From positions 1 to 57,691 of the IMG/VR virus record IMGVR_UViG_3300044631_002111: DNA of 57,691 nucleotides. The stretch is one strand, 5' to 3'. The stretch's first letter is position 1; the number at the start of each line of letters is the position of its first letter. Under the pieces are notes generated by a model. That model saw nothing but the letters and a program-made list of their open reading frames with translations, had not been told where the DNA came from and made no database searches. The position numbers and the translations under genes were made by a program. Of this stretch, positions 23,743 to 52,858 are shown piece after piece. The DNA is from a virus.

Positions 23743-23755
23743 GGTTGAATATACC
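23743..23755 (-). promoter_or_regulatory. Dyad element upstream of the capsid gene
   Basis: The minus strand reads GGTATATTCAACC followed by ACAACC, and the same string occurs on the plus strand at 47272. It lies about 31 bp upstream of the capsid ATG, so a capsid promoter or operator is likely. Confidence 0.6.
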
Positions 23756-28102: not shown

Positions 28103-28122
28103 GGTATATTATGCTTTGTCAA
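28103..28122 (-). promoter_or_regulatory. Dyad element and TTGACA upstream of the portal gene
   Basis: The minus strand reads TTGACA, one base, then AGCATAATATACC. The right half of the dyad is conserved and the left half is degenerate. A CATATC lies 17 bp after TTGACA and could serve as a -10. It lies at the terminase 3' end, about 50 bp before the portal ATG. Confidence 0.5.
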
Positions 28123-29918
28123 ATAGAAAATTTGCTAAACTTGATGGACTTGCCCGAGTTAGCGGCGGAGAGCTTTCCAAAAGTAATTTTACGCTTCACC
28201 TGAATCGAGGTCTCTTGACGCTTCATAGTTACTGTCATGCCACCGAATCCGAACCTTTGACGACACAGCTCAATCAAAATCATGGCCGCGTCGGCCAAGT
28301 CAGGTGATGCGCCGGTCCGGGCTTTCATGTCCGTCTTGCTTTCGACCTCCATGCGGATGGACGCCCCTTTCTTGGTGGAATACTTCCGGGCGCACATCTC
28401 CTTGGCCAGTTCGCGGTCTATGCCCTTGAGCTGCCCGGTCCGAATCAGCTCTTTGGCCCCGAACCACAACTCGGAAACCCTGTTGGTATACCGCTCGCTG
28501 CTAAGAGCGGAGTCGGAGATAGAGACAGGAAGTTCGCTAGCCTTGCCGCCGAACTGAACGCCCAGAACTTCGGGCGACCAGACCATGGAGACGACGTCCC
28601 CGAACGGACCACCAGCTCCAGACTTGTCGTAGGAAGCGCACCAAGGTTCCACTCCCTCCGCCTCACAGGCGTCTTTGAACTGCTGGACGATTTGTTCAGT
28701 CCGGGTTCGTTTCTTGTCGTGAACATTGTCCTGAAGAAGTTTCCGGTGGGTAAACATGAGTGTCGGAATCCCGTCCCGCGAGATGCCGAACTCCCCAAAT
28801 TGTATTGGAGTGCGGTCGCCTCCATTGGTGAAGGCCGGGTCCAGGCCAGCTATCTTGGTCGGCGGCTCTAGCCAGATCGCCTCCCCGTCCGCCCCTGCCG
28901 AAATGATCTCCGTCTCAGAGTAAATGTTGTCCTCGTCTCCCGTGGGGGCCCAGTACCCGCGGAACATGCGGTAGTAGGCCAGCGAGTTCTCCCCAAACCG
29001 AGCTTTGGCCTCGTCCAACTTAGCCTGGGTGACAATCCAGGGGTAAATCGTCTTTCCGGTCAGCACGTTCGGGCTGCGCTCCCCGTCAAACCGGATACAC
29101 AGTCCGCGCTCAGTGTCCCACTCCTCTTCCAGGGGGCTGATCGACTGCCAACCGCCCTTTGGTTTGGCTAAAATACCGAACGCGTCAAAGCGGCTGGCGG
29201 GGTTCCCGATCCCGATGAACTGGAACTCGGGGTTTAAGGACAGATTCGACGCCGAGGCCTCCAAAATTGACTCGGAAAGCTCGGGCATCTCGTCAGCGAT
29301 AACAATGACGCGCCGATTTTTGAACCCGATCAATTTTCCCACGGCTTCTTTTTCTTTTTTCTTCTCGGCCGCGATGAGCGTGATGCCGCATTTGTCCGAA
29401 GTTCCGCCCGTTCCGTCCTCGAACCGGATAAGCCCCATGGAATCGACAAGTTTCCCCGGCAGCGGAGGTGCAGCTTGCCAGTAATCCCGAATACTCCCCC
29501 AAATGCGTTTGCGGGAATCCTTCAAAGTGGTCGAAGTTACGAGCACCATCGTGTCATAAGGCGCGGCGATGAAATTCACGATCGCCCACACGGCGAAAAA
29601 ATCCGTTTTCCCAGACGAAGCACACCCGGCCACGGCGAGGTATTGATTGGCGCAGGACGCTTCCAACATCCGTTCGGCCCATGGGTGCCAGACGAAGGGT
29701 TTCGGACCGTCTTCCGGCCACAGAGCTGACACGATGCGCTTGAAATGATGCTCGGGCGTCTCCCCGCCTTTCTCCAGCGGCATCGGATTGCGAAACGAAA
29801 ACAGTTCGCGGTTGAATTGGTCGATCTTTTTGCTCCACCAACGCCCGTACTGCCACTCTTTGTCGGAGACATCGACGACACGGCCATCCGCCGTGCGAAT
29901 TTTTCCTCGTGATGACAT
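28119..29918 (-). CDS. Terminase large subunit
   Basis: The protein has 599 residues. The ATPase domain has a Walker A-like GCASSGKTDF (about 96-105) and a Walker B VIADEMPE (about 203-210). The nuclease domain has Asp-containing strands AGLDPAFTNGG, WCASYDKSG and LADAAMIL, as in RNase H-like terminase nucleases. It pumps DNA into the prohead through the portal and cuts concatemers. It is the first gene of the leftward arm, facing the integration region. No separate small subunit is evident next to it; the HTH protein at 45.8 kb is one candidate. Confidence 0.88.
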   Translation of the reverse strand: MSSRGKIRTADGRVVDVSDKEWQYGRWWSKKIDQFNRELFSFRNPMPLEKGGETPEHHFKRIVSALWPEDGPKPFVWHPWAERMLEASCANQYLAVAGCASSGKTDFFAVWAIVNFIAAPYDTMVLVTSTTLKDSRKRIWGSIRDYWQAAPPLPGKLVDSMGLIRFEDGTGGTSDKCGITLIAAEKKKEKEAVGKLIGFKNRRVIVIADEMPELSESILEASASNLSLNPEFQFIGIGNPASRFDAFGILAKPKGGWQSISPLEEEWDTERGLCIRFDGERSPNVLTGKTIYPWIVTQAKLDEAKARFGENSLAYYRMFRGYWAPTGDEDNIYSETEIISAGADGEAIWLEPPTKIAGLDPAFTNGGDRTPIQFGEFGISRDGIPTLMFTHRKLLQDNVHDKKRTRTEQIVQQFKDACEAEGVEPWCASYDKSGAGGPFGDVVSMVWSPEVLGVQFGGKASELPVSISDSALSSERYTNRVSELWFGAKELIRTGQLKGIDRELAKEMCARKYSTKKGASIRMEVESKTDMKARTGASPDLADAAMILIELCRQRFGFGGMTVTMKRQETSIQVKRKITFGKLSAANSGKSIKFSKFSI

Positions 29919-37699: not shown

Positions 37700-37708
37700 T
37701 TGACTGAT

Positions 37709-39574
37709 ATGTCCATCGCCGCCGTCGACTTCGAGACGTACTACGACTCGGACGTCACAATCGTAGAGCTGGGGGTTCACCACTACCTCCGGCACTCTGA
37801 GAGTGACATCTATTTGGTCTCGATCGCCACCGACACCGGCCTCCGGTATGTCGGCCATCCTAAAGACTTCGATTGGAGCCAGATCGCCGGTCCTCAGTGG
37901 ACGTGGCTCTCACACAACGCGCAGTTCGACATGCCGGTATTCCAACGGCTGCAAGAGATTGACTGCGGAAACGCCCGATCCGTGACGGAACTCGCGGAGT
38001 GGCACGATACGGCAGACCTGGCCGCGTTCCTATCCGTGCCCCGATCCCTCAAAGAATCCTCCCGCCATTTACTCAACGTCGCCGTTTCCAAAGACGTGCG
38101 CGACGAAATGAAGGGTCAACGCTGGGAGTCAATGTCCCCGCAATTTCGCAAAGCAGTCGAGGAATACGCCCTCGCCGACGCGGAGAACTGCCTCAGACTT
38201 TTTTTGGAGCACGGTCATAAATGGCCGGAGCATGAACGGGAGATCAGCGCGATGACCCGCACCATGGCTCTCCGCGGTGTTCCTCTCGACGCAGAAGCCC
38301 TGGACCGCGATATCGAGAAGCTGGAGGTAGATATGTGGGAGATCCGCCAGTCCATCCCATGGAAGGACGAACCTCACCGCAGTCCGGCTAAAGCCAAGAA
38401 GGGGGTCAAGGTCCCCCTGCTCTCCCCCATCATGCTGCGGGAAGAATGCGCGAAACACGGCCTCAAAGCGCCGACTAGCTTTGCGCAAGACGACCCCGAA
38501 GCAGAAAAGTTTTTCGACGATCACGCCAAAGACCACCCATGGATTCAAGGCGTGCGCGATTACCGCCGCGCGGGCAAGCACCTCAAGACGCTGGAGACCA
38601 TGCGTCAACGCAAGCGCGAAGACGGGTGGATGTCCTACGGGCTCAAATACGGAGGGGCGCACACCTTGCGGGACTCCGGGGACTCGGGCCTCAACATGCA
38701 AAACTTACCAAAGGGCTTGGTATGTGGCGTGGACGTGCGCGCGAAAATCAAGGCTCCCGAGGGCTATACCTTCGCCATCGTCGATTTGTCCCAGATCGAA
38801 CCGCGCTGCCTTCACTGGCTGGCCGAGGACGAAACAACTCTCGCCTATATCCGCCAAGTCCCCGATCTCTACGAAGCGCAGGCGAGAGCGTGGGGGCTTT
38901 ACAACGGGGAAGGCTCGATGGCGCAAAACGCACCGGAGACCCGCTTCCTCATGAAGCAGTTGGCGCTCGGGCTCGGATACGGGATGGGCGCGAAAAGATT
39001 CGCGGACGTAGCCGGTGTCCCCCTCGAAGAGGCAGAGCGGTTGGTGAACCTCTACCGAAACAAGAATCCTCTCGTGCTCAAGCTCTGGAAACGACTGGAG
39101 ACAACTATGAGCGACACCGCCAAGCACCCGACCAACAAGTTGCTGGAGATACACCTGCCCTCGGGACGCACAATGAACTACCGCAACGTAGCCCGAATGG
39201 AGGGAGAAACGCCCAAGCCCTCCAAACTAGCCAGCTACAAAAAGGAGACCTCCACACGACCGAAGGTAGGCCTGCGCGCCGAGATACCCCGCGCCGGAAA
39301 GTTCATGAGACTCGGCTTTTGGGGCGGAGTGCTCGTAGAGAACCTCGTTCAGAGCGCAGCGAGGGATGTTTTTATGGCGCAATGCCTGTCCATCGAGAGA
39401 GCAGGCATTCCGGTTCTCATGCGCGTTCACGACGAAGTCGTGTGTCTTGTCCGCGAGGACGAAGCCGAAGCCAAGCTCGCCCAGATCCTTTCCATCATGT
39501 CCACGCCGCCCGAGTGGGCGCACGGACTGCCGCTCGCTGCGGCCGGAAGCCTGTCCAAAACCTACAAAAAATAG
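37709..39574 (+). CDS. polA: Family A DNA polymerase with proofreading domain
   Basis: The protein has 621 residues from ATG 37709 (a TTG lies 9 bp upstream). The 3'-5' exonuclease is intact: VDFETYYD (Asp7, Glu9), SHNAQFDMPVF and YALADAENCLRLF. Polymerase motifs: A DLSQIEPR (about 359), B RFLMKQLALGLGYG (about 411), C MRVHDEVV (about 574). There is no 5'-3' exonuclease, as in T7-type enzymes. It is the replicative polymerase of the phage and precedes the primase/helicase by 3 bp. Confidence 0.93.
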   Translation: MSIAAVDFETYYDSDVTIVELGVHHYLRHSESDIYLVSIATDTGLRYVGHPKDFDWSQIAGPQWTWLSHNAQFDMPVFQRLQEIDCGNARSVTELAEWHDTADLAAFLSVPRSLKESSRHLLNVAVSKDVRDEMKGQRWESMSPQFRKAVEEYALADAENCLRLFLEHGHKWPEHEREISAMTRTMALRGVPLDAEALDRDIEKLEVDMWEIRQSIPWKDEPHRSPAKAKKGVKVPLLSPIMLREECAKHGLKAPTSFAQDDPEAEKFFDDHAKDHPWIQGVRDYRRAGKHLKTLETMRQRKREDGWMSYGLKYGGAHTLRDSGDSGLNMQNLPKGLVCGVDVRAKIKAPEGYTFAIVDLSQIEPRCLHWLAEDETTLAYIRQVPDLYEAQARAWGLYNGEGSMAQNAPETRFLMKQLALGLGYGMGAKRFADVAGVPLEEAERLVNLYRNKNPLVLKLWKRLETTMSDTAKHPTNKLLEIHLPSGRTMNYRNVARMEGETPKPSKLASYKKETSTRPKVGLRAEIPRAGKFMRLGFWGGVLVENLVQSAARDVFMAQCLSIERAGIPVLMRVHDEVVCLVREDEAEAKLAQILSIMSTPPEWAHGLPLAAAGSLSKTYKK

Positions 39575-39577
39575 CCC

Positions 39578-41749
39578 ATGAAAATATTCTCCCTGCCCAA
39601 CTTGGTCGGCCACGTCGTCTCCATCCTCGACGACACGACGGCCAGCCAACTCCCGAGTCAGCGTCCGAGCAACATGACCAAGGAGATCTACAACCGTTGG
39701 TGTCGCGAGGCTACGACCAAGGGGCATTTTATCTCCGCGTGGGAAGGACTCAACGCGCAGGGGCGCATATCGGAAACCAATCCGTCACGCTACCTTCACG
39801 GCATCATCGCCGACTACGACAACGCGAACGCGATGAGCAAACTCCAGTCGCTGGCTAACAGCACCGGCCACCTGCCGACGTGGGTCGTGCAAAGTTTTAC
39901 TCCGGGCAAGTGCCGACTGATCTGGGTCTTCGAGAACCCTGTCCTGGTGGCCAACCCCGACATCACCGCGGAGTTTCTCAAGAAGCTCGACGAGAAAATT
40001 AAGATCAGCCACGCGCTGCCGGGCTTCGACAAGGCGAGCTGGAAAGACACGCAATACTTCGAGCTGGGGTCGAACTGGCAGTCCATCACCGGGTCGCTGC
40101 CTGTCCCGGATTCCATGCTCTCGGAGTGCATGTTGCAGGGCGGCATGGCGGCAAAGATGGAATTGGCCGACACCGAGATACCAATGGAGGTGATCGCCGA
40201 GGAGGTCGAAAGCCGCTGGCCGGGACGCTGGGGAGGTCAGTTCACCGAGGGCGCGGCGGGCCCACTGTTTTGGATTGAACCATTCCTCAACCATCGAAAC
40301 GCCGTGGTGCGGGAAAACGGGATGGTCTGCTTTTCCGACCGCTCCCCCAGCAACTTCATGCCGTGGCGCGCGATTCTGGGCGACAAGTTTGTCGAGAAAT
40401 ACGAGACCGAACGCGCGGCCAAGCTGGCGGAGATGTTCTACTTCGACGGCACCTCCTACTGGACCAACACGCTTAACGGGGGCACGTGGAAGCCGCTCAA
40501 TCAAAACAACGCGCAACTGCATCTGAAAAATGCGCGCTGCTCACCGCGGATCATCAAGGGCGCCTACGTTAGCGAGGTCGACAAAGTGCTGGTCCACATC
40601 CACACCAGCCGCAACGTCGCCGCCGCCGTGCCAATGCTTTTCCGCGACGAGTCGGTGGTGAGCTACAACGGCGAGGACTACCTGAACATCTCCAACAAAC
40701 ATGCGATGGCTCCGGGAGACAATGGCGACCCCGCCAACTTCCCGTGGATCTACGACTTCATCATGAACGGTTTGGATGGAGAGCAAAACGGGGTTCCGGC
40801 CAGGGAATATTTTATCGGATGGCTGCGCCGGTTCTGGCTGACCAGCTACCAGAAAAACCCGCAGCCGGGACAATCAGTCATCCTTGCCGGGGAGGCCCAC
40901 ACGGGTAAGACGTTTTTCTCCAAGTGCGTTCTGGGGGTGGCCGTGGGCGGATCAATCACTGCCGAGGACATCCTGCTCCAGAGGACAAAGTTCAACCGGC
41001 AGGCCGCGCACAACGCGCTCTGGCGCTGCGACGATGCGATTGCCGAGGGCGACGCCCGCACCAAACAAGTTCTGGCCAACAGTCTGAAGGCGATGGCGGC
41101 AAACCCGACCGTGCTTTACCAGCCAAAGTTTGTGGACGCGGCCGAGCTTCCCTTCCTGGGGCGGGTGTTCCTCACCTGCAACACGGACCCCGAGTCACTC
41201 AAGATCCTGCCCTACCTGGACGGGACCATCAAAGACAAGTTGATGATGTTCCGGATAAAGGACGGCTACCGGCCCCACTTCTTCGGCATCAACAGCGACA
41301 ACGAAGCCCGCGCCATGGCCGAGCTTCCGTTCTTCCTGCGCTGGCTCATGGACTACACCGTCAACCCTGCCGTCCTCGATCCACACAGTCAGCGCTTCGA
41401 GATCGCCAGCTTCCACCACGCCACGCTGGTCGCGGAGGCTAACAGCGAGCAGCCCGAGAGCCTGCTGGCCGAACTCATCCACGCCGCCATGATCAACCTG
41501 CGCGGCGCGGCCAAGAAGGGGGAGCAACACCGCATGACCATGACCGAGCTGTGCCGCGCGATCGAAGTCGCCGAAATGAGCCGCCCGCTGCAACAGCTCG
41601 GAGGCGTCCGGACCCTGGGCAAGCTGCTGCACAAGGTCATCGAGCAGAAACTTTCGCCGCACCTTTCGGCTCCGCCGAAAATCATCCACGGCACCAACAC
41701 ATACACCTTCGACCCTTGGGCCGGAGAAGAACAGGAAACCAAACCATGA
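39578..41749 (+). CDS. Primase-polymerase/SF3-type helicase
   Basis: The protein has 723 residues. The N-terminal region carries HGIIADYDNANA, a likely acidic metal site of an archaeo-eukaryotic-type primase, and a VQSFTPGKCRLIWVF strand. The C-terminal half is a helicase: Walker A GEAHTGKTFFSK (about 437-448), Walker B ALWRCDDAIAEG and sensor VFLTCNTDPES. This is the phage D5/SF3 primase-helicase plan, unwinding and priming for the neighbouring polymerase. The stop overlaps the next gene (ATGA). Confidence 0.82.
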   Translation: MKIFSLPNLVGHVVSILDDTTASQLPSQRPSNMTKEIYNRWCREATTKGHFISAWEGLNAQGRISETNPSRYLHGIIADYDNANAMSKLQSLANSTGHLPTWVVQSFTPGKCRLIWVFENPVLVANPDITAEFLKKLDEKIKISHALPGFDKASWKDTQYFELGSNWQSITGSLPVPDSMLSECMLQGGMAAKMELADTEIPMEVIAEEVESRWPGRWGGQFTEGAAGPLFWIEPFLNHRNAVVRENGMVCFSDRSPSNFMPWRAILGDKFVEKYETERAAKLAEMFYFDGTSYWTNTLNGGTWKPLNQNNAQLHLKNARCSPRIIKGAYVSEVDKVLVHIHTSRNVAAAVPMLFRDESVVSYNGEDYLNISNKHAMAPGDNGDPANFPWIYDFIMNGLDGEQNGVPAREYFIGWLRRFWLTSYQKNPQPGQSVILAGEAHTGKTFFSKCVLGVAVGGSITAEDILLQRTKFNRQAAHNALWRCDDAIAEGDARTKQVLANSLKAMAANPTVLYQPKFVDAAELPFLGRVFLTCNTDPESLKILPYLDGTIKDKLMMFRIKDGYRPHFFGINSDNEARAMAELPFFLRWLMDYTVNPAVLDPHSQRFEIASFHHATLVAEANSEQPESLLAELIHAAMINLRGAAKKGEQHRMTMTELCRAIEVAEMSRPLQQLGGVRTLGKLLHKVIEQKLSPHLSAPPKIIHGTNTYTFDPWAGEEQETKP

Positions 41750-44370: not shown

Positions 44371-44668
44371 TTGGGTGGATGTAATTCTGCTGGGTGGATG
44401 AGAAAATTTTACATCCACCCAAATTAAGGTGCTGATTTTGAGACGTTTGTGATCGCTGGGTGGATGAGGGGGGTTAGGTGGGTGTGTTTTGAGTCCTTAT
44501 ACATAATGGGTGTATGAAGGAAGATGCCTTATTATTTTTCTCGCGCGCGTATTTTAAAATTACATCCACCTCATCCACCCAAATTGCATAAGTCGTTGAC
44601 CATCAACATCGCATTTGGGTGTATCAAGCGTTTTTTCTCATCCACCCAAACCCACCCTCATCCACCCA
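44371..44668. repeat. Iteron cluster, candidate replication origin or regulator-binding region
   Basis: The decamer TGGGTGGATG occurs perfectly at 44372, 44391 and 44457 on the plus strand and at 44412, 44572, 44639 and 44659 on the minus strand. TGGGTGTATG/C variants lie at 44507 and 44616, with partial copies near 44475, 44563 and 44650. The copies at 44371-44384 and 44409-44422 form a perfect 14-bp inverted repeat. The tract is AT-rich between copies and has no gene. Confidence 0.8.
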
Positions 44669-45022: not shown

Positions 45023-45042
45023 GGTATCCGATATCGGATACC
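45023..45042. promoter_or_regulatory. Long palindrome copy 1 (20 bp)
   Basis: GGTATCCGATATCGGATACC, the longest perfect version. Its outer 5 bp on each side are the GGTAT/ATACC half sites of the other dyad family. It lies about 100 bp before the 45145 gene. Confidence 0.85.
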
Positions 45043-45144
45043 CCAACAGGCCGCGCCACCTAACTACAGGGGCAGGTGTGAGCGGGACACGTGACCGGAA
45101 GCAATAACGCCAACGGCGCGCAATCCCCCGCCCACACCTATAAC

Positions 45145-45654
45145 ATGAAGAAAGCGAAAACCGAAAAGAAGGCGCGCGCTGTCGTCGCCGAAACGAAAAC
45201 CGCTGGCCTCCTCGCCAGCACGGCGCGCATCCTGTCGCGCCTTGTGGGCGGGCTGGTAAAGATCGCGTCCGGCGAGGATTCTCTCGCCGCGCACGTTGAA
45301 AAGACCAAGGCCACACTCAAAGCGCAGATTGATGCGGCAGTCGAAGACTGGCGCGCAATCAAAGCGGAACACCGCGAACCCGCCGAGCGGAAAGCGTTGG
45401 CGCAAAGCGTTTATAACGCTTTGACAAAAGAGCACGGCATGACGCCACAACGCGCTTCCGAGGTTCTGAAACGCATTGGCGTGCAGATTCGCGAAAAGGC
45501 GAAAACCGAGGCGACGAACGTCTCGGCGGAAAATATCGAACAGCTTTTCATGCTGGCCGATAAGTTAGAGAATGGGGACGGGCGCCGCGTTTGCGCGCTT
45601 CTCTCCCGCGCTTATGGGAAAGGCCGGAAGGTCTACCCTGCGAAACGCGACTAA
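45145..45654 (+). CDS. Basic helical protein of unknown function
   Basis: The protein has 169 residues, Lys/Ala/Glu-rich and almost fully helical (EKTKATLKAQIDAAVEDWRA, KERGMTPQRASEVLKRIGV-like helix-turn region). A possible nucleic-acid-binding or transcript-control protein. It is flanked by palindrome 1 upstream and a strong terminator downstream, so it forms a single-gene transcript. No domain is recognised. Confidence 0.6.
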   Translation: MKKAKTEKKARAVVAETKTAGLLASTARILSRLVGGLVKIASGEDSLAAHVEKTKATLKAQIDAAVEDWRAIKAEHREPAERKALAQSVYNALTKEHGMTPQRASEVLKRIGVQIREKAKTEATNVSAENIEQLFMLADKLENGDGRRVCALLSRAYGKGRKVYPAKRD

Positions 45655-45663
45655 TCAAAAAGA

Positions 45664-45693
45664 CCCTCGCACCTTCGGGTGCGGGGGTTTTTT
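45664..45693 (+). terminator. Strong intrinsic terminator (likely bidirectional)
   Basis: A 10-bp stem (45664-45673 with 45678-45687), a UUCG loop and TTTTTT follow the 45145 gene. On the minus strand the same stem is followed by TCTTTTTG, so it may also stop readthrough from the convergent HTH gene. Confidence 0.92.
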
Positions 45694-45790
45694 CGTGCCA
45701 AAATCACTGTCATGTTCACTGTCACCAACTGTCATCTACTTTCACTGCTCGCGCGCGGTTGCGCTCCTCTGCTCCTCTGCTCCTCGACTA

Positions 45791-45808
45791 TTATCCGATA
45801 TCGGATAA
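45791..45808. promoter_or_regulatory. Long palindrome copy 2
   Basis: TTATCCGATATCGGATAA. It contains the stop codon of the minus-strand HTH gene, whose last codons read L-S-D-I-G-stop. Confidence 0.88.
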
Positions 45809-46426
45809 GTCGTTTTGCTGCTCATCGGGCTGGCAACCCGTAGTTTCACTCTGTGGAGCATCGGATGGTGACGCTTTGGTGACGGATTCGGCCTCATTTT
45901 CGACGAATTCGCCCTCTATGATCTCATCCTGCAAACTTGTCTTTAGCCTCTCGTTGACGACCTGCAACTGGACGATGGTGTTGCTCTTGCCCTCTGTCTC
46001 GTCGATGCCCAGCAACCGGCGCATCATCTTATCCGCGATGTCGTAGTCCTTCCAGTTGCGCGGCGGGGCGATGATCGTCTGGTCAAGAAGTCTGGCCATC
46101 TTTAAGACCCCTTTGCTCCGGTAGTCCTTGGTGGCCTTGTCGAAGTCGAGCGCACCTGTTGATGTCGATAACGAGTTTGCGGAGCGCGCGGCTCCTTCTA
46201 TTTGTTCTGCAAGAGCATTGTTTTCTGTGACCCTGTAACCCTGCATCTCTGCGACCTTGTCGAGCTTGTTCCGAACACGCTTCGGAGTGTTCCATTTGTA
46301 GCGCATACTCCGCATCCGGATGGTCGCCTGATTTATTCCGAACATCCGTGCTACATCTGCCAGAGAAGTTCCCTTCTCCACCACCTTTTGAATCTCGTCC
46401 CATGGGACATCTAGTGCTTTGGGCAT
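45791..46426 (-). CDS. HTH protein, candidate regulator or small terminase
   Basis: The protein has 211 residues. The N-terminus holds a clear helix-turn-helix (SLADVARMFGINQATIRMRS, about 21-40). A middle helical region (KMARLLDQTI, YDIADKMMRRLLGIDE) and an acidic Glu/Ser/Asp tail follow. This plan is found in phage terminase small subunits and in repressors. It is encoded against its neighbours with its own promoter, and palindromes lie at its stop codon and upstream. I infer it may bind them, but a packaging role is an equal alternative. Confidence 0.65.
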   Translation of the reverse strand: MPKALDVPWDEIQKVVEKGTSLADVARMFGINQATIRMRSMRYKWNTPKRVRNKLDKVAEMQGYRVTENNALAEQIEGAARSANSLSTSTGALDFDKATKDYRSKGVLKMARLLDQTIIAPPRNWKDYDIADKMMRRLLGIDETEGKSNTIVQLQVVNERLKTSLQDEIIEGEFVENEAESVTKASPSDAPQSETTGCQPDEQQNDLSDIG

Positions 46427-46473
46427 AATTTGGACAGGTCTGTAAAGCTCTGCAACTTGTTGTAAAAAAGGTA

Positions 46474-46502
46474 GGAATATGGTGTATTAAACCTTGAGTC
46501 AA
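46474..46502 (-). promoter_or_regulatory. Probable sigma70-type promoter of the HTH gene
   Basis: On the minus strand TTGACT and TATTCC are 17 bp apart, giving a start about 40 nt before the ATG. The -35 is good and the -10 is weak. Confidence 0.4.
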
Positions 46503-46630
46503 GCACTACCCCATGTTAATATGGTTATCGTAAGGTAAGAGTTAGATCAGACCCTTACGATCCTTGAAATTTGAAGGCCAAGTAAGTCCGAGGCAAGTGT
46601 GCCAACGCTGAGTCGATTGACTGCCAGAAG

Positions 46631-46646
46631 TATCCGATATCGGATA
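46631..46646. promoter_or_regulatory. Long palindrome copy 3
   Basis: TATCCGATATCGGATA followed by ACTC, inside the structured non-coding region. The flank is similar to that of copies 7 and 8. Confidence 0.85.
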
Positions 46647-46903
46647 ACTCCGGTGAAGCGTGGGTGGCGGGCGCCGAGCACGACCCGACGATACTGCATG
46701 GCCGAGAAGTGAGATCAGACCAGCATCAGCAAAAGTTGGTTCCTGTGCCGACCCGCATTGAAAGCGGGCAGCAACCCTAACGGGTTCAAGTCGTGTAGCG
46801 CGAAAGCGTGTGACGGGCGGATGGTGCAAAGCCCACAGGATGCGCGGAAGTGGATAGCTGGTAGACCGGACACTCGCATTGGGTTGCTCCCAACCTCCGG
46901 TGC

Positions 46904-46921
46904 TTATCCGATATCGGATAA
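46904..46921. promoter_or_regulatory. Long palindrome copy 4
   Basis: TTATCCGATATCGGATAA, directly after the 46865-46901 hairpin and inside the structured non-coding region. Confidence 0.85.
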
Positions 46922-47271
46922 GTAGATTAACCTTGTAGCGTCGATTTATTCACGCGAACGGATTGACGTCTGGCAGACGTCTGAAACAGCAAAGCGTGGA
47001 ATGTCTGGCCAAGATGGCAGCAGACTCGCACAACGCTCATTCGCCCTTCGCGAATAGCAAGTAAGCGTGGAAGCCCTCGGCCCGAGTTGTATCCGAACCC
47101 CCTTTCCGAGCCTATCGGCTCACCTAAAAAATCAGCGGGAATCCCATACAAGTCGTTGAGACGTCGCGTAATTAAAGCAAAAGCAAAAGTCATTAGATCA
47201 CCCCCTGCTTCGAGAGAGGCAGGGGCTATCTGGTGAATAAGTGTTACCAGAGACGCTCTGCCGTCAGGCAG

Positions 47272-47284
47272 GGTATATTCAACC
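47272..47284 (+). promoter_or_regulatory. Dyad element before the 47311 gene
   Basis: GGTATATTCAACC followed by ACAACC, the same string as in the capsid leader. It begins one base after the last hairpin of the non-coding region and 27 bp before the next start. Confidence 0.6.
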
Positions 47285-47310
47285 ACAACCTAAAAACGAA
47301 AGATCATACC

Positions 47311-47553
47311 ATGAACAAACAAATGCACCGCTTCACAGCACCGCTGGAAAGCGACGACTGGAAACAACGTCTCGCCGCCTACCTCGCGCAAGACGACGAG
47401 TCGTTGGAAGCGCAATACCACAAGAACGACACCGCCTCGGAACCCGATCCGGAGCCGTTCTACTTCGTCGCACCCGCTGTCTCCGAACAGCGTTTCGCGG
47501 TTCCCACCAACGTGTTGTCCGCCTTGGACACACTCAACAAGTCGGTCGCCTAG
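47311..47553 (+). CDS. Small acidic protein of unknown function
   Basis: The protein has 80 residues, acidic and soluble (LESDDWKQRLAAYLAQDDES, NVLSALDTLNKSVA). It is a single gene between a dyad element and palindrome 5. A-rich leader with CGAAAG; no clear Shine-Dalgarno. No family is recognised. Confidence 0.6.
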   Translation: MNKQMHRFTAPLESDDWKQRLAAYLAQDDESLEAQYHKNDTASEPDPEPFYFVAPAVSEQRFAVPTNVLSALDTLNKSVA

Positions 47554-47558
47554 TCCGG

Positions 47559-47574
47559 TATCCGATATCGGATA
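47559..47574. promoter_or_regulatory. Long palindrome copy 5
   Basis: TATCCGATATCGGATA preceded by GG and followed by AGTAAC, 5 bp after a stop and 25 bp before the next ATG. Confidence 0.88.
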
Positions 47575-47599
47575 AGTAACCCAAAATTACTTTCACACT

Positions 47600-47839
47600 A
47601 TGAGCACCAACTTCCCATCAACCGGCATCAAACCGCAAGACGTTGCCGCGGAACTAGCACAAGCCATCCGCGACCACCGCCAGCGCAAAACCCTGCGCCT
47701 TGTCGTCCGAGACAACGACGGCAGCAACCAATGCTTGCCGCCCTCGGCGTGGATGATCCTCGCCGACCGGATCTCCAACCGCGCCATCGACAAAGTCATG
47801 GACGTGGTGGCCAAGCAACGCATCGGCCTTGCCGCCTAA
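47600..47839 (+). CDS. Small protein ending in LAA
   Basis: The protein has 79 residues: an amphipathic helix (IKPQDVAAELAQAIRDHRQR), then a short beta segment, then a helical end RIGLAA. The C-terminal Leu-Ala-Ala is like the end of the ssrA degradation tag. The product is not recognised. Confidence 0.6.
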   Translation: MSTNFPSTGIKPQDVAAELAQAIRDHRQRKTLRLVVRDNDGSNQCLPPSAWMILADRISNRAIDKVMDVVAKQRIGLAA

Positions 47840-47843
47840 TCCC

Positions 47844-47939
47844 ATGACCACCATCGAACTCACTCAAACGATGCTGGAGATCGCCGTGTTCCTCGTCATC
47901 CCCGCCGTGTTTGTCGCGGTGTGGGTCACCAACGATTAA
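47844..47939 (+). CDS. 31-residue membrane peptide
   Basis: ATG 4 bp after the previous stop. One hydrophobic span (MLEIAVFLVIPAVFVAVWV). It ends just before palindrome 6. Likely real by spacing and composition. Confidence 0.5.
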   Translation: MTTIELTQTMLEIAVFLVIPAVFVAVWVTND

Positions 47940-47944
47940 GCCCT

Positions 47945-47960
47945 TATCCGATATCGGATA
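47945..47960. promoter_or_regulatory. Long palindrome copy 6
   Basis: TATCCGATATCGGATA, only 7 bp before the metallophosphoesterase ATG, so bound protein would also cover the ribosome-binding area. Confidence 0.88.
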
Positions 47961-47967
47961 TCTCACC

Positions 47968-48645
47968 ATGAAACATCTGTTCTACCAACCGCTCAAAGTT
48001 GACGCCAAAGACCCCGACGTTCTGTTTTGGGGTTGTTTGCATTACGGCCACGACCCCAAGTGGGATGTCCCACTCTGGGCGCGGCGCGGCTATGCTTCGT
48101 CGGCGGATCACGATCAAGGCATCATAGATGCCTGGCGCACCAAGGCCACCGACCGCACCATAGCTTTCCTGCTCGGAGACAATGTCTTCGGCTACGGAGG
48201 CGAAGAGAAGTTCCGTTACCTGCTCGACACGCTGCGCTTCAAGACCGCGTATGTTTTGTCGGGCAACCACCACGCCGGATGGAAGCAAGTGTTCGAGAGC
48301 TGCGAAGGTAATACCCTGCAACTCGGCGACGACAAGTCCGTGGTCTTTGTCCCCAACTACTTGGAGACATACGTCAACGGCCAACCCATCGTCCTGTCGC
48401 ATTATCCGATAGCTTCATGGAACGGCCAAGGCCACGGATCGTGGATGCTCCATAGCCATTGCCACGGAGAACTCTACAAGAGCGACCTCGGCAAGCTGCT
48501 CTACCGCGCCAAGATCAAGGACGTTGGTGTGGACTGCTGCCCTGCACCCCTGTCGTTTGGCGAACTGCGACACCAATTCCGTGAAGAGTCGGTCAGCTTC
48601 GACCATCACACCCCGAACACTCGGACTCCGTTTACCCCGCAATGA
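47968..48645 (+). CDS. Calcineurin-like metallophosphoesterase
   Basis: The protein has 225 residues. Metal-site motifs are in order: GCLHYGH (residues 22-28), LLGDN (68-72), LSGNHH (97-102), LSHYPIASW (143-151) and HSHCHG (162-167). The first motif normally is D-x-H; here the Asp position is Cys23. Members of this phage-type family hydrolyse phosphodiesters or phosphomonoesters such as nucleotides. It overlaps a zinc-ribbon gene by 4 bp. Activity is uncertain because of the changed ligand. Confidence 0.8.
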   Translation: MKHLFYQPLKVDAKDPDVLFWGCLHYGHDPKWDVPLWARRGYASSADHDQGIIDAWRTKATDRTIAFLLGDNVFGYGGEEKFRYLLDTLRFKTAYVLSGNHHAGWKQVFESCEGNTLQLGDDKSVVFVPNYLETYVNGQPIVLSHYPIASWNGQGHGSWMLHSHCHGELYKSDLGKLLYRAKIKDVGVDCCPAPLSFGELRHQFREESVSFDHHTPNTRTPFTPQ

Positions 48646-48893
48646 ACTGCCCACAATGCGGCGCCGGTATTCCGGCTGCTCGCACCAACCTCGGCTTCTT
48701 CATCTGCGTGTCTTGTGCTCAACAGCGTCCGGTTCCCAAATACAAGGGAGCCATGACCTACGATCAAAAGACCGGAGGCGCCGTCACCCTCATGTCGCCC
48801 GCCGAGTTCACCTACTTCAGGAAGGTGACTCGTCGCCGTGGGCAGCAAAGCGTCCTGCGCAACGTGTTACACGCAAACGGACGCGCCGTCTGA
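48642..48893 (+). CDS. Zinc-ribbon small protein
   Basis: The protein has 83 residues: NCPQCGAG at 2-9 and FICVSCAQQ at about 20-28 form a four-Cys zinc ribbon. The C-terminal part is basic (FRKVTRRRGQQSVLRNVL). Coupled to the phosphoesterase by an ATGA overlap; the two may act together or the ribbon may bind nucleic acid. Confidence 0.65.
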   Translation: MNCPQCGAGIPAARTNLGFFICVSCAQQRPVPKYKGAMTYDQKTGGAVTLMSPAEFTYFRKVTRRRGQQSVLRNVLHANGRAV

Positions 48894-48898
48894 AACCC

Positions 48899-48916
48899 TT
48901 ATCCGATATCGGATAA
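48899..48916. promoter_or_regulatory. Long palindrome copy 7
   Basis: TTATCCGATATCGGATAA followed by CTCTGG, 5 bp after a stop codon. It begins a leader that is repeated after copy 8. Confidence 0.88.
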
Positions 48917-48982
48917 CTCTGGCAAACGCCGTCCCGCCAACAAGTGGACAGCAAAACCTAACCTAGAAAGACCAACACCAGT
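48917..48982 (+). repeat. Leader repeat, copy A
   Basis: The 66-bp leader shares CTCTGGC, then CGCC, then TCCCGCCAACAAGTGGA, then TAACCTAGAAAGA with copy B at 49421-49481. The order is the same and both are between a palindrome and an ATG. Confidence 0.75.
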
Positions 48983-49420
48983 ATGAACGAATCCATCGAA
49001 TACTCCGATCTGTATTCTGGCGTCCAATACTCCAAGGATCAGCACGACGAGCTTGTCGCGCCGCTTCTGCGCGTTATCGAAACCATCCCCTCGGTCGTTC
49101 GCGACGAGAAGGGGAGTGTCAAACTCGGCGAGCCGATCATCGCCGACCTCTTGGGGAGCTACCCCATGACCATCGTGCGATTCCGTCCGAGCATTGTCTT
49201 GACGCTCCAACTCCAAGACGACGGCGGCAAGCCGTATGTCATCGGCAAACTCAAAAAGTTCCACGAACTGCGCCGCGCAGAAAATGGCGACGTCATCAGT
49301 AGTGCAAACGAGACCATTGAATTGGGGCCGTTGTATCCGCGGGAATTGGAACGTCTACCCGAACTTGTCGCCAAGCTGGAGCAGACAGAAGTCCCGAATC
49401 TCTTATCCGATATCGGATAA
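48983..49420 (+). CDS. 145-residue protein of unknown function
   Basis: The protein has 145 residues: an acidic start (IEYSDLYSGVQYSKDQHDEL), a helix, a beta-rich central domain (MTIVRFRPSIVLTLQLQDDG) and a helical end. The last codons read L-L-S-D-I-G-stop and lie in palindrome 8. It forms a one-gene unit with a repeated leader. Confidence 0.62.
   Translation: MNESIEYSDLYSGVQYSKDQHDELVAPLLRVIETIPSVVRDEKGSVKLGEPIIADLLGSYPMTIVRFRPSIVLTLQLQDDGGKPYVIGKLKKFHELRRAENGDVISSANETIELGPLYPRELERLPELVAKLEQTEVPNLLSDIG
49403..49420. promoter_or_regulatory. Long palindrome copy 8
   Basis: TTATCCGATATCGGATAA containing the TAA stop of the 48983 gene, followed by CTCTGG as in copy 7. Confidence 0.88.
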
Positions 49421-49481
49421 CTCTGGCCTCCGCCATCCCGCCAACAAGTGGATGGCATCTAACCTAGAAAGAAAACGAACC
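49421..49481 (+). repeat. Leader repeat, copy B
   Basis: Shares most of its 61 bp with copy A, including the AACCTAGAAAGA element close to the ATG. That element also occurs near 51808 and 57659. Confidence 0.75.
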
Positions 49482-49676
49482 ATGACCTTCGAGTCACCAA
49501 CCAAACAACCGAACCGCCGCGCCTTCATCTGGAGACCCGGCTGCAAGCGTCTCGTGCCCGAGACGACCCGCAAAACCCAGCACTCCTTCTCCTTCCTACC
49601 GGATGCCGAGATCGAGCGCTACGTCAGCGCCGATTTGGCGCAGGGTATCATCAACCGCAACCCTAAAAAGCACTAA
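49482..49676 (+). CDS. 64-residue protein of unknown function
   Basis: Basic N-terminal half (PNRRAFIWRPGCKRLVPETT) and a helical C-terminal half (DAEIERYVSADLAQGII). ATG after leader copy B. It starts a four-gene unit that ends in palindrome 9. Confidence 0.58.
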   Translation: MTFESPTKQPNRRAFIWRPGCKRLVPETTRKTQHSFSFLPDAEIERYVSADLAQGIINRNPKKH

Positions 49677-49681
49677 CCCAC

Positions 49682-49855
49682 ATGAAGAAGAAATCCCCAA
49701 AGCAGGGACAACCCCTCAATTCAACCGGACAGAAATGCACCTGCCGCAAAGGCGTTGAACGCAACAACTGCCCCCACTGCGAAGGCACAGGATGGCGCAT
49801 CAATTTCCGCGCTGTGTTCTTCAACTTCCTATCCGAACTCGACGAATACCAATGA
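49682..49855 (+). CDS. 57-residue zinc-finger protein (DnaJ-type CxC/CxxCxG)
   Basis: The motif CTCRKG-x5-CPHCEGTGW resembles one half of a DnaJ-type zinc finger (C-x-C ... C-x2-C-x-G-x-G). The protein has a basic N-terminus and a helical end (VFFNFLSELDEYQ). The stop overlaps the next ATG. Confidence 0.55.
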   Translation: MKKKSPKQGQPLNSTGQKCTCRKGVERNNCPHCEGTGWRINFRAVFFNFLSELDEYQ

Positions 49856-50316
49856 GCAAAAAACTCACCAAGAAAGCTCTGTTGCAGAAGGCCAAAGCCC
49901 GACTCATGGGCGACGAACCGACTGCTGCCGAGATGTTCCTCCTCGCCCACAAGTTGGGGATAAAGTCTGCCAAGATCGAATTCAGCGGTTCCGGTGACGA
50001 CGGCGATTACTACGACCCAGAATACGAAGGCGGCGAAGACCCCAAGATCACAGACGCCAGCGGCAACTGGGTCCCCAACCCCAAGTATGGGGAAGACCAC
50101 CAACGCTTGGACAAAATGGTCCAAGAGACGGCGGAGAACTGGGTCCAAAGCACCGACGTCGATTGGTATAACAACGAAGGCGGCGGAGGTAACGTCGCGT
50201 TCGACTTCAAGACCGGCGGAGTGACCGGATACATCTTCCAATACGAGCAGGTCGAACACGAAGCCGCTAGCGGGGAGTGGAACCTGCTCGAAGACAAAGA
50301 AGAGGGGGACGAGTAA
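49852..50316 (+). CDS. Acidic protein, possibly DUF6878-like
   Basis: The protein has 154 residues: helical basic N-terminus (KKALLQKAKARLMGD), then LGIKSAKIEFSGSGDDGDYY and a very acidic Gly/Asp/Glu-rich remainder. The IEFSGSGDDGD pattern recalls DUF6878. Coupled to both neighbours by overlaps (ATGA and TAATG). Function unknown. Confidence 0.58.
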   Translation: MSKKLTKKALLQKAKARLMGDEPTAAEMFLLAHKLGIKSAKIEFSGSGDDGDYYDPEYEGGEDPKITDASGNWVPNPKYGEDHQRLDKMVQETAENWVQSTDVDWYNNEGGGGNVAFDFKTGGVTGYIFQYEQVEHEAASGEWNLLEDKEEGDE

Positions 50317-50675
50317 TGTCGCACCCCTACCACCACGCCGTTTCCTCTGCCAAGAAGTGGGGAGGAAAGGCCGAGGACTACCAGAAGATTCACGACTGGT
50401 TCGACCAGTCGAAATCATTCTATGCCGACTGGCGGCATCGCGCCCTTCGCCACCACGCGGAGGGCATTTTTATGTGCGAGTCCATCTTCGGCGTCACCCT
50501 CACCAACTCGCTCGGCCAGGAGATTCCTGTCCGTTTGATCGGCGAGCAACACGTCCGCGAGGACTTGGGCCGGATACCCAGCGTCCAAGACTGGCTCTCC
50601 AACATCACAAGTGTGCCGTGGATGCGGCACACCCCTAAAGAAGATCAACCACAACCAGTATCCGATATCGGATAA
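50316..50675 (+). CDS. DUF6915-like protein
   Basis: The protein has 119 residues: HPYHHAVSSAKKWGGKAEDY, HDWFDQSKSFYADWRHRALR, HHAEGIFMCESIFG and GEQHVREDLGRIPSVQDWL. This order of conserved His/Trp/Arg blocks matches a phage family (DUF6915) of unknown function. Its stop lies in palindrome 9 and the last residues are V-S-D-I-G. Confidence 0.72.
   Translation: MSHPYHHAVSSAKKWGGKAEDYQKIHDWFDQSKSFYADWRHRALRHHAEGIFMCESIFGVTLTNSLGQEIPVRLIGEQHVREDLGRIPSVQDWLSNITSVPWMRHTPKEDQPQPVSDIG
50659..50674. promoter_or_regulatory. Long palindrome copy 9
   Basis: TATCCGATATCGGATA; the TAA stop of the DUF6915-like gene overlaps its right end. It is 36 bp before the next ATG. Confidence 0.88.
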
Positions 50676-50710
50676 GTCACCACACCAACAACAAACTAAC
50701 TCAAATAAGT

Positions 50711-51856
50711 ATGAGCACTAACCTAACAACCGAAGAAATCGCGGACAAGATCCGCTCCTCTGCCCTGCTGGTATCTCTCCAGCTCGGCTCCTACAACCCC
50801 GTCAAGACCGACAAGACCGAGAGCCGCAAGGTCTCTTCGTCGCACGGCATCAACGACCCGAAGCTGATGAAGGTCCAGAAACACACGCTGCCCACGGCTG
50901 GCGTGCTCGACGACATCGGCAAGCTCGACACCAAGATCCGCGCTGCTGTTGACAAGTATACCGCTCCGTTTGCTCGGGGCATTGGTCTGCTTCCGGCCAT
51001 CAAGTTCTTCGACCTGCGCAAAGAAGTTAATGCGCTCTTCGACGAACGCGCCACCATGGTCAAGCGATTGGCCGATGAATACTCGATCTACTTGGACGGC
51101 GCGAAACGCAGCCTCAACGGCGCCTTCAAGGACGACGACTACCCTCCGGTCACCGACGTTGTCTCGCGCTTCTACGCCAAGCTCGACAGCTTCGCCATCG
51201 CCAACCCCAAGGACGCGCGCCTCGGAGTGCTCGGCGAAATCGCGGAGCAGATCCAAGCCGCGCAAGCCGACACCCTCAACGACAAGTTGTCCACAGTCGT
51301 GCCCTACCTGCGTGAGCTTCTGCTCAAGGCCCTCTGCCACCAGTCGGCCATCTTGCAGAACCCCGACGCCAAGCTCTACGAAACTACTTTCACGAACGTG
51401 CTGGAAGCCGCGGAGCAAGCCGAACATCTCAACATGTTGGGCGACGAACAGATCATCAACGCCGTCTTCGCCATCCGTGACCGGCTCGACCGGACCAAGG
51501 ATCAGGTGAAGGACGACGACCACATGCGCAAAATGATGTGTCCAAAGGCACAGGCAAGGCCAAAGCCAAGAAGTCCGTGGCCCCTGCCGCGCCGCTTCCC
51601 GAACCTCCTGCCGAGATCATCGTGCCCGATCTGGCCGAGGAGGATGAGCCGATTGATGAGCCGATTTCCTCCGCAGAAGTTGCGGAGATTGAACCGGAAA
51701 TCTCCGCAGAAGTGGAGACGACCGAAACCAAGGCGTCCTTCGACGCTGATGCCATGCTGGCCAAACTCGGCTGGTAGGTATCATACACCACACCAACAAC
51801 ATAACCTAGAAAATCAAACATCATGCAAACGATCGAAGTCACAACATCCCAACTGA
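50711..51856 (+). CDS. Helical protein with probable frame disruption near residue 275
   Basis: The frame from ATG 50711 gives a convincing 275-residue protein, mostly helical (LDTKIRAAVDKYTAPFARGI, ALFDERATMVKRLADEYSIY, LLGDEQIINAVFAIRDRL-like end). After about 51,537 the same frame becomes Pro/Arg/Ser-rich without structure and runs into the MoxR gene. A sensible acidic tail is in the -1 frame (51538-51777). A frameshift, natural or technical, or a separate overlapping gene would explain this. Function unknown; located before MoxR, so perhaps its partner. Confidence 0.6.
   Translation: MSTNLTTEEIADKIRSSALLVSLQLGSYNPVKTDKTESRKVSSSHGINDPKLMKVQKHTLPTAGVLDDIGKLDTKIRAAVDKYTAPFARGIGLLPAIKFFDLRKEVNALFDERATMVKRLADEYSIYLDGAKRSLNGAFKDDDYPPVTDVVSRFYAKLDSFAIANPKDARLGVLGEIAEQIQAAQADTLNDKLSTVVPYLRELLLKALCHQSAILQNPDAKLYETTFTNVLEAAEQAEHLNMLGDEQIINAVFAIRDRLDRTKDQVKDDDHMRKMMCPKAQARPKPRSPWPLPRRFPNLLPRSSCPIWPRRMSRLMSRFPPQKLRRLNRKSPQKWRRPKPRRPSTLMPCWPNSAGRYHTPHQQHNLENQTSCKRSKSQHPN
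51538..51777 (+). CDS. Acidic C-terminal part or separate small gene
   Basis: GTG start in the -1 frame of the 50711 gene. The 79 residues start basic (KGTGKAKAKKS), continue Pro/Glu/Ile-rich and acidic (EPPAEIIVPDLAEEDEPIDE), and end ADAMLAKLGW. This looks like a natural C-terminal tail. No stop-coupled start is present, which makes a fusion with the upstream frame attractive. Confidence 0.5.
   Translation: MSKGTGKAKAKKSVAPAAPLPEPPAEIIVPDLAEEDEPIDEPISSAEVAEIEPEISAEVETTETKASFDADAMLAKLGW
51777..51789 (+). promoter_or_regulatory. Dyad element before moxR-like gene
   Basis: GGTATCATACACC (one mismatch) followed by ACACC overlaps the last base of the upstream stop and is 33 bp before the ATPase ATG. 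AACCTAGAAAA follows in the leader. Confidence 0.55.
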
Positions 51857-52836
51857 AAACCGTCCTCAAGGACTGCCGTGCCGCCAAGCTCAACCCCTTC
51901 ATCCAAGGTCAGCCGGGGGTCGGCAAGTCCGCTGTCGTCAACGAGTTCGCCCGTGAGGAGAACTCCGAGTTCATCGACGTCCGCTTGGCCTACTTCGGCC
52001 CGCAGGACTTCGGCTACCCCTACCTCCACGTCAACGAGGACGGCACCAAGACTATGCGCGTCAGCCGCCCCTCGTTCTGGCCGACCACCGAGAACTCGGT
52101 GATCGCCTACGAGGAGTTCAACACCTGCTCCAAGAACGTGCAGAACTGCTCGTTGCAGTTGTTCCATGACCGCCGCCTCAACGACCACCACCTGCCGGAG
52201 GGCACGTTCCAAGTGCTGCTCGGCAATCGTGCCGAGGACCGCGTCAACATCGAGAAGCTCTCGTCCGCGGTCATCAACCGCATCGTCAACATCCGAGTCC
52301 GCCTCGACTTGGATTCGTGGATCAAGTGGGCGCAGAAACATGACGTTGACTCTCTGGTCATCGCCTTCCTGCGCTTCCGCCCCGACTTGTTGACGACATT
52401 CAACGGAGCCAAGTGGGACGGCGTGAGCAACTTCGCCTCGCCCCGCACATGGGAGAAGGCGGGCAACATCATCTCGGTGTCCACCGACCGCCACGTCCGC
52501 CACGCCCTCTTGCAGGGTGCGCTCGGTGACGGCGCTGCTGCCGAGTTCCTCGGCTTCCTCGCCGTCTACGAGAAGCTGCCCGACTTGGACGGCGTGCTGC
52601 TCAACCCGAACAAGGCTCCGGTCCCGACTGACCCTGCCACCATCTGGGCTACTTGTGCTGGCCTGTCCAAGCGCGTCAAGCCCAAGACCATGCCCAACTT
52701 CCTCACCTACCTCGACCGACTCCCCAAGGAGTTCTCGATGTTCGGGGTCAAGACGGCGGTCAACCAGAACAAGGCGCTCATGAATACCCCCTCGTTCGTG
52801 ACGTGGGTCACCGACAACCAAGAGGCGTTCAACTAA
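51823..52836 (+). CDS. MoxR-type AAA+ ATPase
   Basis: The protein has 337 residues. Walker A GQPGVGKS (about 29-36), Walker B-type VIAYEEFN (about 92-99), sensor 1 LLGNRAED, and a downstream arginine-containing VINRIVNIRVRL fit MoxR/GvpN-like ATPases. The C-terminal domain is helical. Such proteins act as chaperone-like motors and are nearly always paired with a VWA protein, as here. Phage targets are unknown. Palindrome 10 separates it from its partner gene. Confidence 0.82.
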   Translation: MQTIEVTTSQLKTVLKDCRAAKLNPFIQGQPGVGKSAVVNEFAREENSEFIDVRLAYFGPQDFGYPYLHVNEDGTKTMRVSRPSFWPTTENSVIAYEEFNTCSKNVQNCSLQLFHDRRLNDHHLPEGTFQVLLGNRAEDRVNIEKLSSAVINRIVNIRVRLDLDSWIKWAQKHDVDSLVIAFLRFRPDLLTTFNGAKWDGVSNFASPRTWEKAGNIISVSTDRHVRHALLQGALGDGAAAEFLGFLAVYEKLPDLDGVLLNPNKAPVPTDPATIWATCAGLSKRVKPKTMPNFLTYLDRLPKEFSMFGVKTAVNQNKALMNTPSFVTWVTDNQEAFN

Positions 52837-52840
52837 CCAC

Positions 52841-52858
52841 TTATCCGATATCGGATAA
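52841..52858. promoter_or_regulatory. Long palindrome copy 10
   Basis: TTATCCGATATCGGATAA, 4 bp after the ATPase stop and 19 bp before the VWA-like ATG. No further copy is seen to the right. Confidence 0.88.

Follow-up and report, generated by a model that had tools for sequence, protein, structure and literature searches.

What does a phage keep in 46427–47310, a stretch of 884 nucleotides flanked by a leftward HTH gene and a rightward ORF of 80 aa? The DNA analysed here (the window) is a linear IMG/VR virus record of 57,691 bases, and the host genome of the stretch is that of a freshwater-type phage. Its leftward genes are structural, with the terminase at 28119–29918, and its rightward genes belong to replication and the early region (Table 1). 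The earlier note had proposed that the stretch encodes a large, ornate phage RNA of the GOLLD/ROOL kind, or a new one.

Coding signal is absent from both strands of the stretch, as judged by codon log-odds. Its ORFs of at least 40 aa score −0.24 to +0.02 bits per codon, whereas almost all phage genes score between +0.14 and +0.44. A tblastx search found no relative. The proposal that there is no convincing coding frame is thus borne out. The ORFs at 46927–47286 and 46542–46829 (both minus strand) were considered as genes and rejected, and the stretch holds no long ORF for an endonuclease or RT.

Perfect hairpins occur in excess. Seven have stems of 6 bp or more, whereas dinucleotide shuffles give 2.4 and only 2 of 200 contain as many as seven; similarly rare matches are found for stems of at least 7 bp (four hairpins, matched by 1 of 200 shuffles) and at least 5 bp (14 hairpins, 4 of 200). 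The claim of at least eleven perfect hairpins therefore holds when 5-bp stems are counted and fails for stems of at least 6 bp. Several finer details that had been reported are present as described, namely a GNRA-type loop, a repeat of AAGCGTGG in three places, and a right-end hairpin that meets a dyad exactly, with the hairpin ending at 47271 and the dyad-like GGTATATTCAACC starting at 47272.

The full stretch folds more stably than its shuffled versions on both strands (z −3.25 on plus, −3.08 on minus), and with repeat estimates included the values for the plus strand range from −3.3 to −3.9. Relative to other 800-nt pieces of the window, for which the mean dE of 41 is −8.9 ± 12.4, the value for the stretch is −32.5. 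This folding excess is genuine and modest. Energy alone is weak evidence, because four of those 41 pieces reach −29 to −32 (one of the four overlaps the stretch); likewise, 8 of 91 other 884-nt pieces reach seven hairpins of at least 6 bp. The greatest local excess lies at 47187–47306 (z −5.9). This region contains the best individual element, a hairpin of 19 bp (z −5.4 over 59 nt), whose predicted energy is −29.3 kcal/mol on the plus strand compared with −21.2 kcal/mol on the minus strand because of its G-U pairs on plus. No U tract of the terminator type follows the last hairpin of the stretch.

That other parts of the genome fold equally well would be expected if the stretch, lying in an early region that changes fast, were filler free of selection or the remains of decayed genes, with hairpins that arose by chance. 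However, only about 1% of shuffles match the hairpin excess, and chance would not readily supply the 19-bp hairpin or the motifs that bracket the stretch. Moreover, phages seldom retain 0.9 kb of filler.

The bracketing motif, GGTRTNNTNWACC, has 12 copies in the window where 0.15 are expected (sites include 15873, 17188, 23743, 32451, 36765, 42464, 46481, 47272 and 49644). Copies lie upstream of the putative major capsid gene (23743–23755, minus strand) and of other ORFs, and the motif, which is found in all eight relatives searched, precedes coding genes in relatives too. We infer that it is a phage promoter element because it has a −10-like core (TATAAT, TATATT or TATCAT). Several copies are nearly palindromic (GGTATAATATACC). 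The plus-strand copies at 46481 and 47272 bracket the stretch, which suggests a separate rightward RNA of about 750–790 nt that would be transcribed from the first motif, end near the 19-bp hairpin and stop just short of the motif of the next gene. Such an RNA is predicted to adopt a multi-hairpin fold, the ends of which may be joined by a closing helix, and its two internal palindromes are predicted to be able to pair and so may enclose a central domain of 256 nt.

Table 1 Features of the stretch, its surroundings and the loci of related phages.
Feature	Position	Strand	Remark
DNA polymerase	37700–39574	rightward	
Primase-like gene	39578–41749	rightward	
MoxR-type ATPase	51823–52836	rightward	
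Divergent HTH gene	45791–46426	−	Weak resemblance to terminase small subunits; anchor for finding relatives
Stretch studied	46427–47310		Between the leftward HTH gene and the rightward 80-aa ORF
Promoter-like motif GGTGTATTAAACC	46481–46493	+	Predicted RNA start just downstream, about 46490–46500
Putative non-coding structured RNA	46494–47257	+	No coding signal; z −3.4 to −3.9; hairpin excess
Predicted end-to-end closing helix, AGCACT/AGTGTT	46502–46507 / 47240–47245	+	Ensemble pair probability >0.7, from a single sequence
Perfect 9-bp hairpin ATCGTAAGG/CCTTACGAT	46527–46561	+	
Palindrome TATCCGATATCGGATAA, RNA-internal copy 1	46631–46647		
Repeat 1, AAGCGTGG	46656–46663	+	
GNRA tetraloop hairpin CGC-GAAA-GCG	46799–46808	+	From sequence
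Palindrome TTATCCGATATCGGATA, RNA-internal copy 2	46904–46920		
7-bp hairpin GACGTCT/AGACGTC	46965–46981	+	
Repeat 2, AAGCGTGGAA	46992–47001	+	
6-bp hairpin ATTCGC/GCGAAT	47039–47055	+	
Repeat 3, AAGCGTGGAA	47063–47072	+	
19-bp hairpin (9 + 10 bp)	47190–47236	+	Three G-U pairs on plus; strongest fold in the stretch
Hairpin CTGCC-GTCA-GGCAG	47258–47271	+	Adjoins the next promoter-like motif
Promoter-like motif GGTATATTCAACC of next gene	47272–47284	+	
First rightward ORF past the RNA	47311–47553	+	80 aa, no known family
Palindrome TATCCGATATCGGATA, ten sites	45025, 45792, 46631, 46905, 47559, 47945, 48900, 49404, 50659, 52842		
Shared hairpin in window	48913–48960 and 49432–49460		Model matches; each directly follows a palindrome and precedes an ORF
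Shared hairpin in L010	9375–9426	−	
Shared hairpin in L011	9582–9633	−	
Shared hairpin in L032	9902–9951	−	
Shared hairpin in L035	8598–8651	−	
Shared hairpin in L036	7411–7460	−	

Eight related phage contigs (L009, L010, L011 and L032–L036) were found through the HTH protein, and a TerL identity of 79–86% in the five that hold this protein confirms the kinship. A further locus, L012, carries the closest relative of the gene at 47968; it is not syntenic and was set aside. The TerL match in the L033 record (G005:C1:59802–62621) is interrupted by about 1 kb that stays within one unbroken open frame of 984 aa; the insertion appears intein-like.

In five of the eight relatives the slot beside the HTH gene holds non-coding, RNA-like sequence of about 220–660 nt. 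L009 has the longest, at 661 nt; its z is −5.7, or −3.8 when the calculation was repeated after slight trimming of the ends. The values for L035 are about 430 nt and z −3.1, and those for L036 about 270 nt and z −2.6, which falls to −0.8 after trimming. The slots of L010 and L011 (about 390 and 220 nt) are non-coding, fold no better than shuffles and have in common the block AAAGTGGGACTCAAA...TACGGCCAACACCCTAGCC, and those of L032, L033 and L034 contain only a short hairpin element or small ORFs. A copy of GGTRTNNTNWACC lies directly 5′ of the slot RNA in L011, and near-copies are found in L035 and L036. The L035 and L036 sequences are alignable over about 200 nt. A structure set by hand for this pair, including a pseudoknotted helix without variation, retains 35 of 35 base pairs in both phages, and seven of these pairs are changed on both sides compared with 3.4 in shuffles. 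Coming from two sequences, these compensatory pairs are suggestive, a support for the structure and not proof of it.

The window RNA itself shows no convincing similarity above shuffles to the same-slot RNAs of the relatives, whether by local alignment or word chaining, and neither of two covariance models, one built from the L035/L036 RNA and the other from a hairpin shared by the clade (see below), finds a match in 46427–47310. No alignable homologue was present in the collections searched; blastn against phages and plasmids and scans of GTDB genomes returned no match. A motif seemingly common to the window and L009 (GGTGGCGG..GACGAT..GAGATCAG) was tested by word chaining and rejected, as 107 of 300 shuffles gave chains equally good; its other matches in a scan of viral collections were chance-like and mostly coding. 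Filler would account for this lack of sequence conservation, but not for the structured RNAs that relatives carry at this position, and we regard it as highly unlikely. It is the slot, and not its sequence, that is conserved.

The slot of five of the eight relatives (L010, L011, L032, L035 and L036) ends in a covarying hairpin that is 15–60 nt before an ORF. This shared hairpin has a 7-bp stem and an 11–13-nt loop, CGCCA...AAG(U). Across the five phages, all 35 cells of the alignment pair, and four of the seven base pairs are changed on both sides. It is present in six of ten clade records, and a relaxed pattern gave only weaker 6-bp matches in the other loci fetched. No Rfam family matches it at gathering level in the window, L010 or L011. 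A boxB- or put-like role, or one as a translational element, is possible.

The placement of this hairpin bears on whether the rightward early operon instead begins with this stretch as a long, structured 5′ leader, so that transcription would continue into 47311 and further and the RNA would act in cis through antitermination, translation control or processing. Lambda nut/boxB and HK022 put are early leader RNAs of phages, and the resemblance is real in two respects: the stretch comes first in the rightward early block, and ORFs of the clade are repeatedly preceded by a hairpin whose loop is conserved, two copies of which are in the window (48928 and 49432). However, both of those copies lie outside the stretch, where a model search finds no instance of the hairpin. 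In addition, the window RNA is about ten times longer than these leaders, and a separate promoter-like motif stands directly before the next gene. A cis-acting leader is therefore an unlikely explanation, albeit one with some chance of being correct.

Ten identical 16-bp palindromes, TATCCGATATCGGATA, are distributed over 45025–52857, compared with 0.02 expected. Most are at the ends of early-region genes, and several ORFs stop on the palindrome (...LSDIG*). Relatives have counterparts in comparable places. L009 has three that resemble TTAGCCGNNNNCGGCTAA, a pair inside its RNA and a third where its HTH gene ends, and L011 has TTGTCC-N5-GGACAA. The set is a candidate for either a stoperator-like group of operators or a family of intergenic hairpins. 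A gap of about 1 kb with few genes also contains an array at 44373–44667, in which nine repeats of the GGGTGKATG type, in both orientations, occupy about 300 bp. This array, which is present in L009 as well (3224–3435), is a candidate for a replication origin or a regulatory array.

These repeats raise the prospect that the stretch functions as DNA, in the form of an operator, packaging site or replication site whose dyads bind protein, with RNA folding being incidental. Two of the ten palindromes are indeed inside the stretch, and both strands fold nearly equally, a symmetry that strand-specific selection on an RNA would not predict. A packaging role gains some interest from the divergent HTH protein, which may be a small terminase subunit encoded about 16 kb from the large one. 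Its top Foldseek match is a TerS (E 0.005, from a poor model), four to five of the eight members of its group give weak matches to PHROG TerS families, and a tblastn search in phages found no match. However, the two inner palindromes are not special to the stretch because they belong to a set of ten whose other eight members lie elsewhere, and an origin at 46427–47310 is unlikely because the array at 44373–44667 is a far better candidate. Moreover, the strongest hairpin depends on plus-strand G-U pairs, and the relatives' slot retains compensatory pairs of the kind expected for RNA. A DNA-level element is thus distinctly unlikely.

Known classes of large RNA do not accommodate the stretch. No covariance model for GOLLD, ROOL, HEARO or group I introns, the families named in the earlier note, gives a match; nor does that for group II introns. 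With lax filters, cmscan of the stretch returns no family up to E 10, and none is found in the whole window at gathering level. ARAGORN detects no tRNA gene in the window. GOLLD RNAs are similar in being phage-borne, about 800 nt long, densely structured and found in phages of lakes and other waters (PMC12286853). They often lie near tRNA genes, although this is not an obligatory feature, and their members have a universally conserved 3′ region (PMC12286853). In contrast, the window RNA has no tRNA island and no conservation even among close relatives. A homo-oligomeric nanocage is a further feature of GOLLD. ROOL is likewise a large phage RNA of unknown function (PMC12286853), but the stretch lacks a ROOL covariance-model match and a tRNA island, and no conserved pseudoknotted core was found. 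Thus, of the original proposal, the large structured RNA survives as the best reading, given the non-coding sequence, the hairpin excess, the motifs and the same-slot RNAs, and the GOLLD/ROOL assignment does not. The stretch does combine non-coding sequence with significant structure, as is generic for structured non-coding RNAs of phages.

The stretch is very likely an RNA gene. We somewhat favour the more specific reading that it is an independent, lineage-specific non-coding RNA gene, transcribed rightward from a slot shared with relatives, whose transcription, ends, independence and function are all inferred. The slot would consist of the divergent HTH gene, the RNA and then small rightward ORFs, and many members of the clade would fill it with non-coding, often structured RNA that turns over too fast for most examples to align. 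This fast turnover, together with the adjacent small and rapidly changing ORFs and the separate motif, suits an early RNA that acts in trans on the host better than it suits a conserved machine of the GOLLD/ROOL type. The promoter-like motif that belongs to the next gene also makes action in trans seem likelier than action in cis. The function is probably directed at the host or at gene expression, and candidate roles on the host include regulator, decoy or counter-defence.

A bolder form of this idea is that the clade reserves a place in its early region for large structured RNAs, with both sequence and fold exchanged from one lineage to the next, as happens with counter-defence proteins, such that the 0.78-kb window RNA would be one exchangeable effector unrelated to the classes described so far. 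We consider this quite improbable. The known large phage RNAs, GOLLD and ROOL, are conserved and were discovered through that conservation. Because same-slot RNAs here cannot be aligned even at terminase identities of 80–86%, RNAs of this kind would escape discovery methods based on covariation. If expressed, the window RNA would point to host takeover at the RNA level in uncultured phages.
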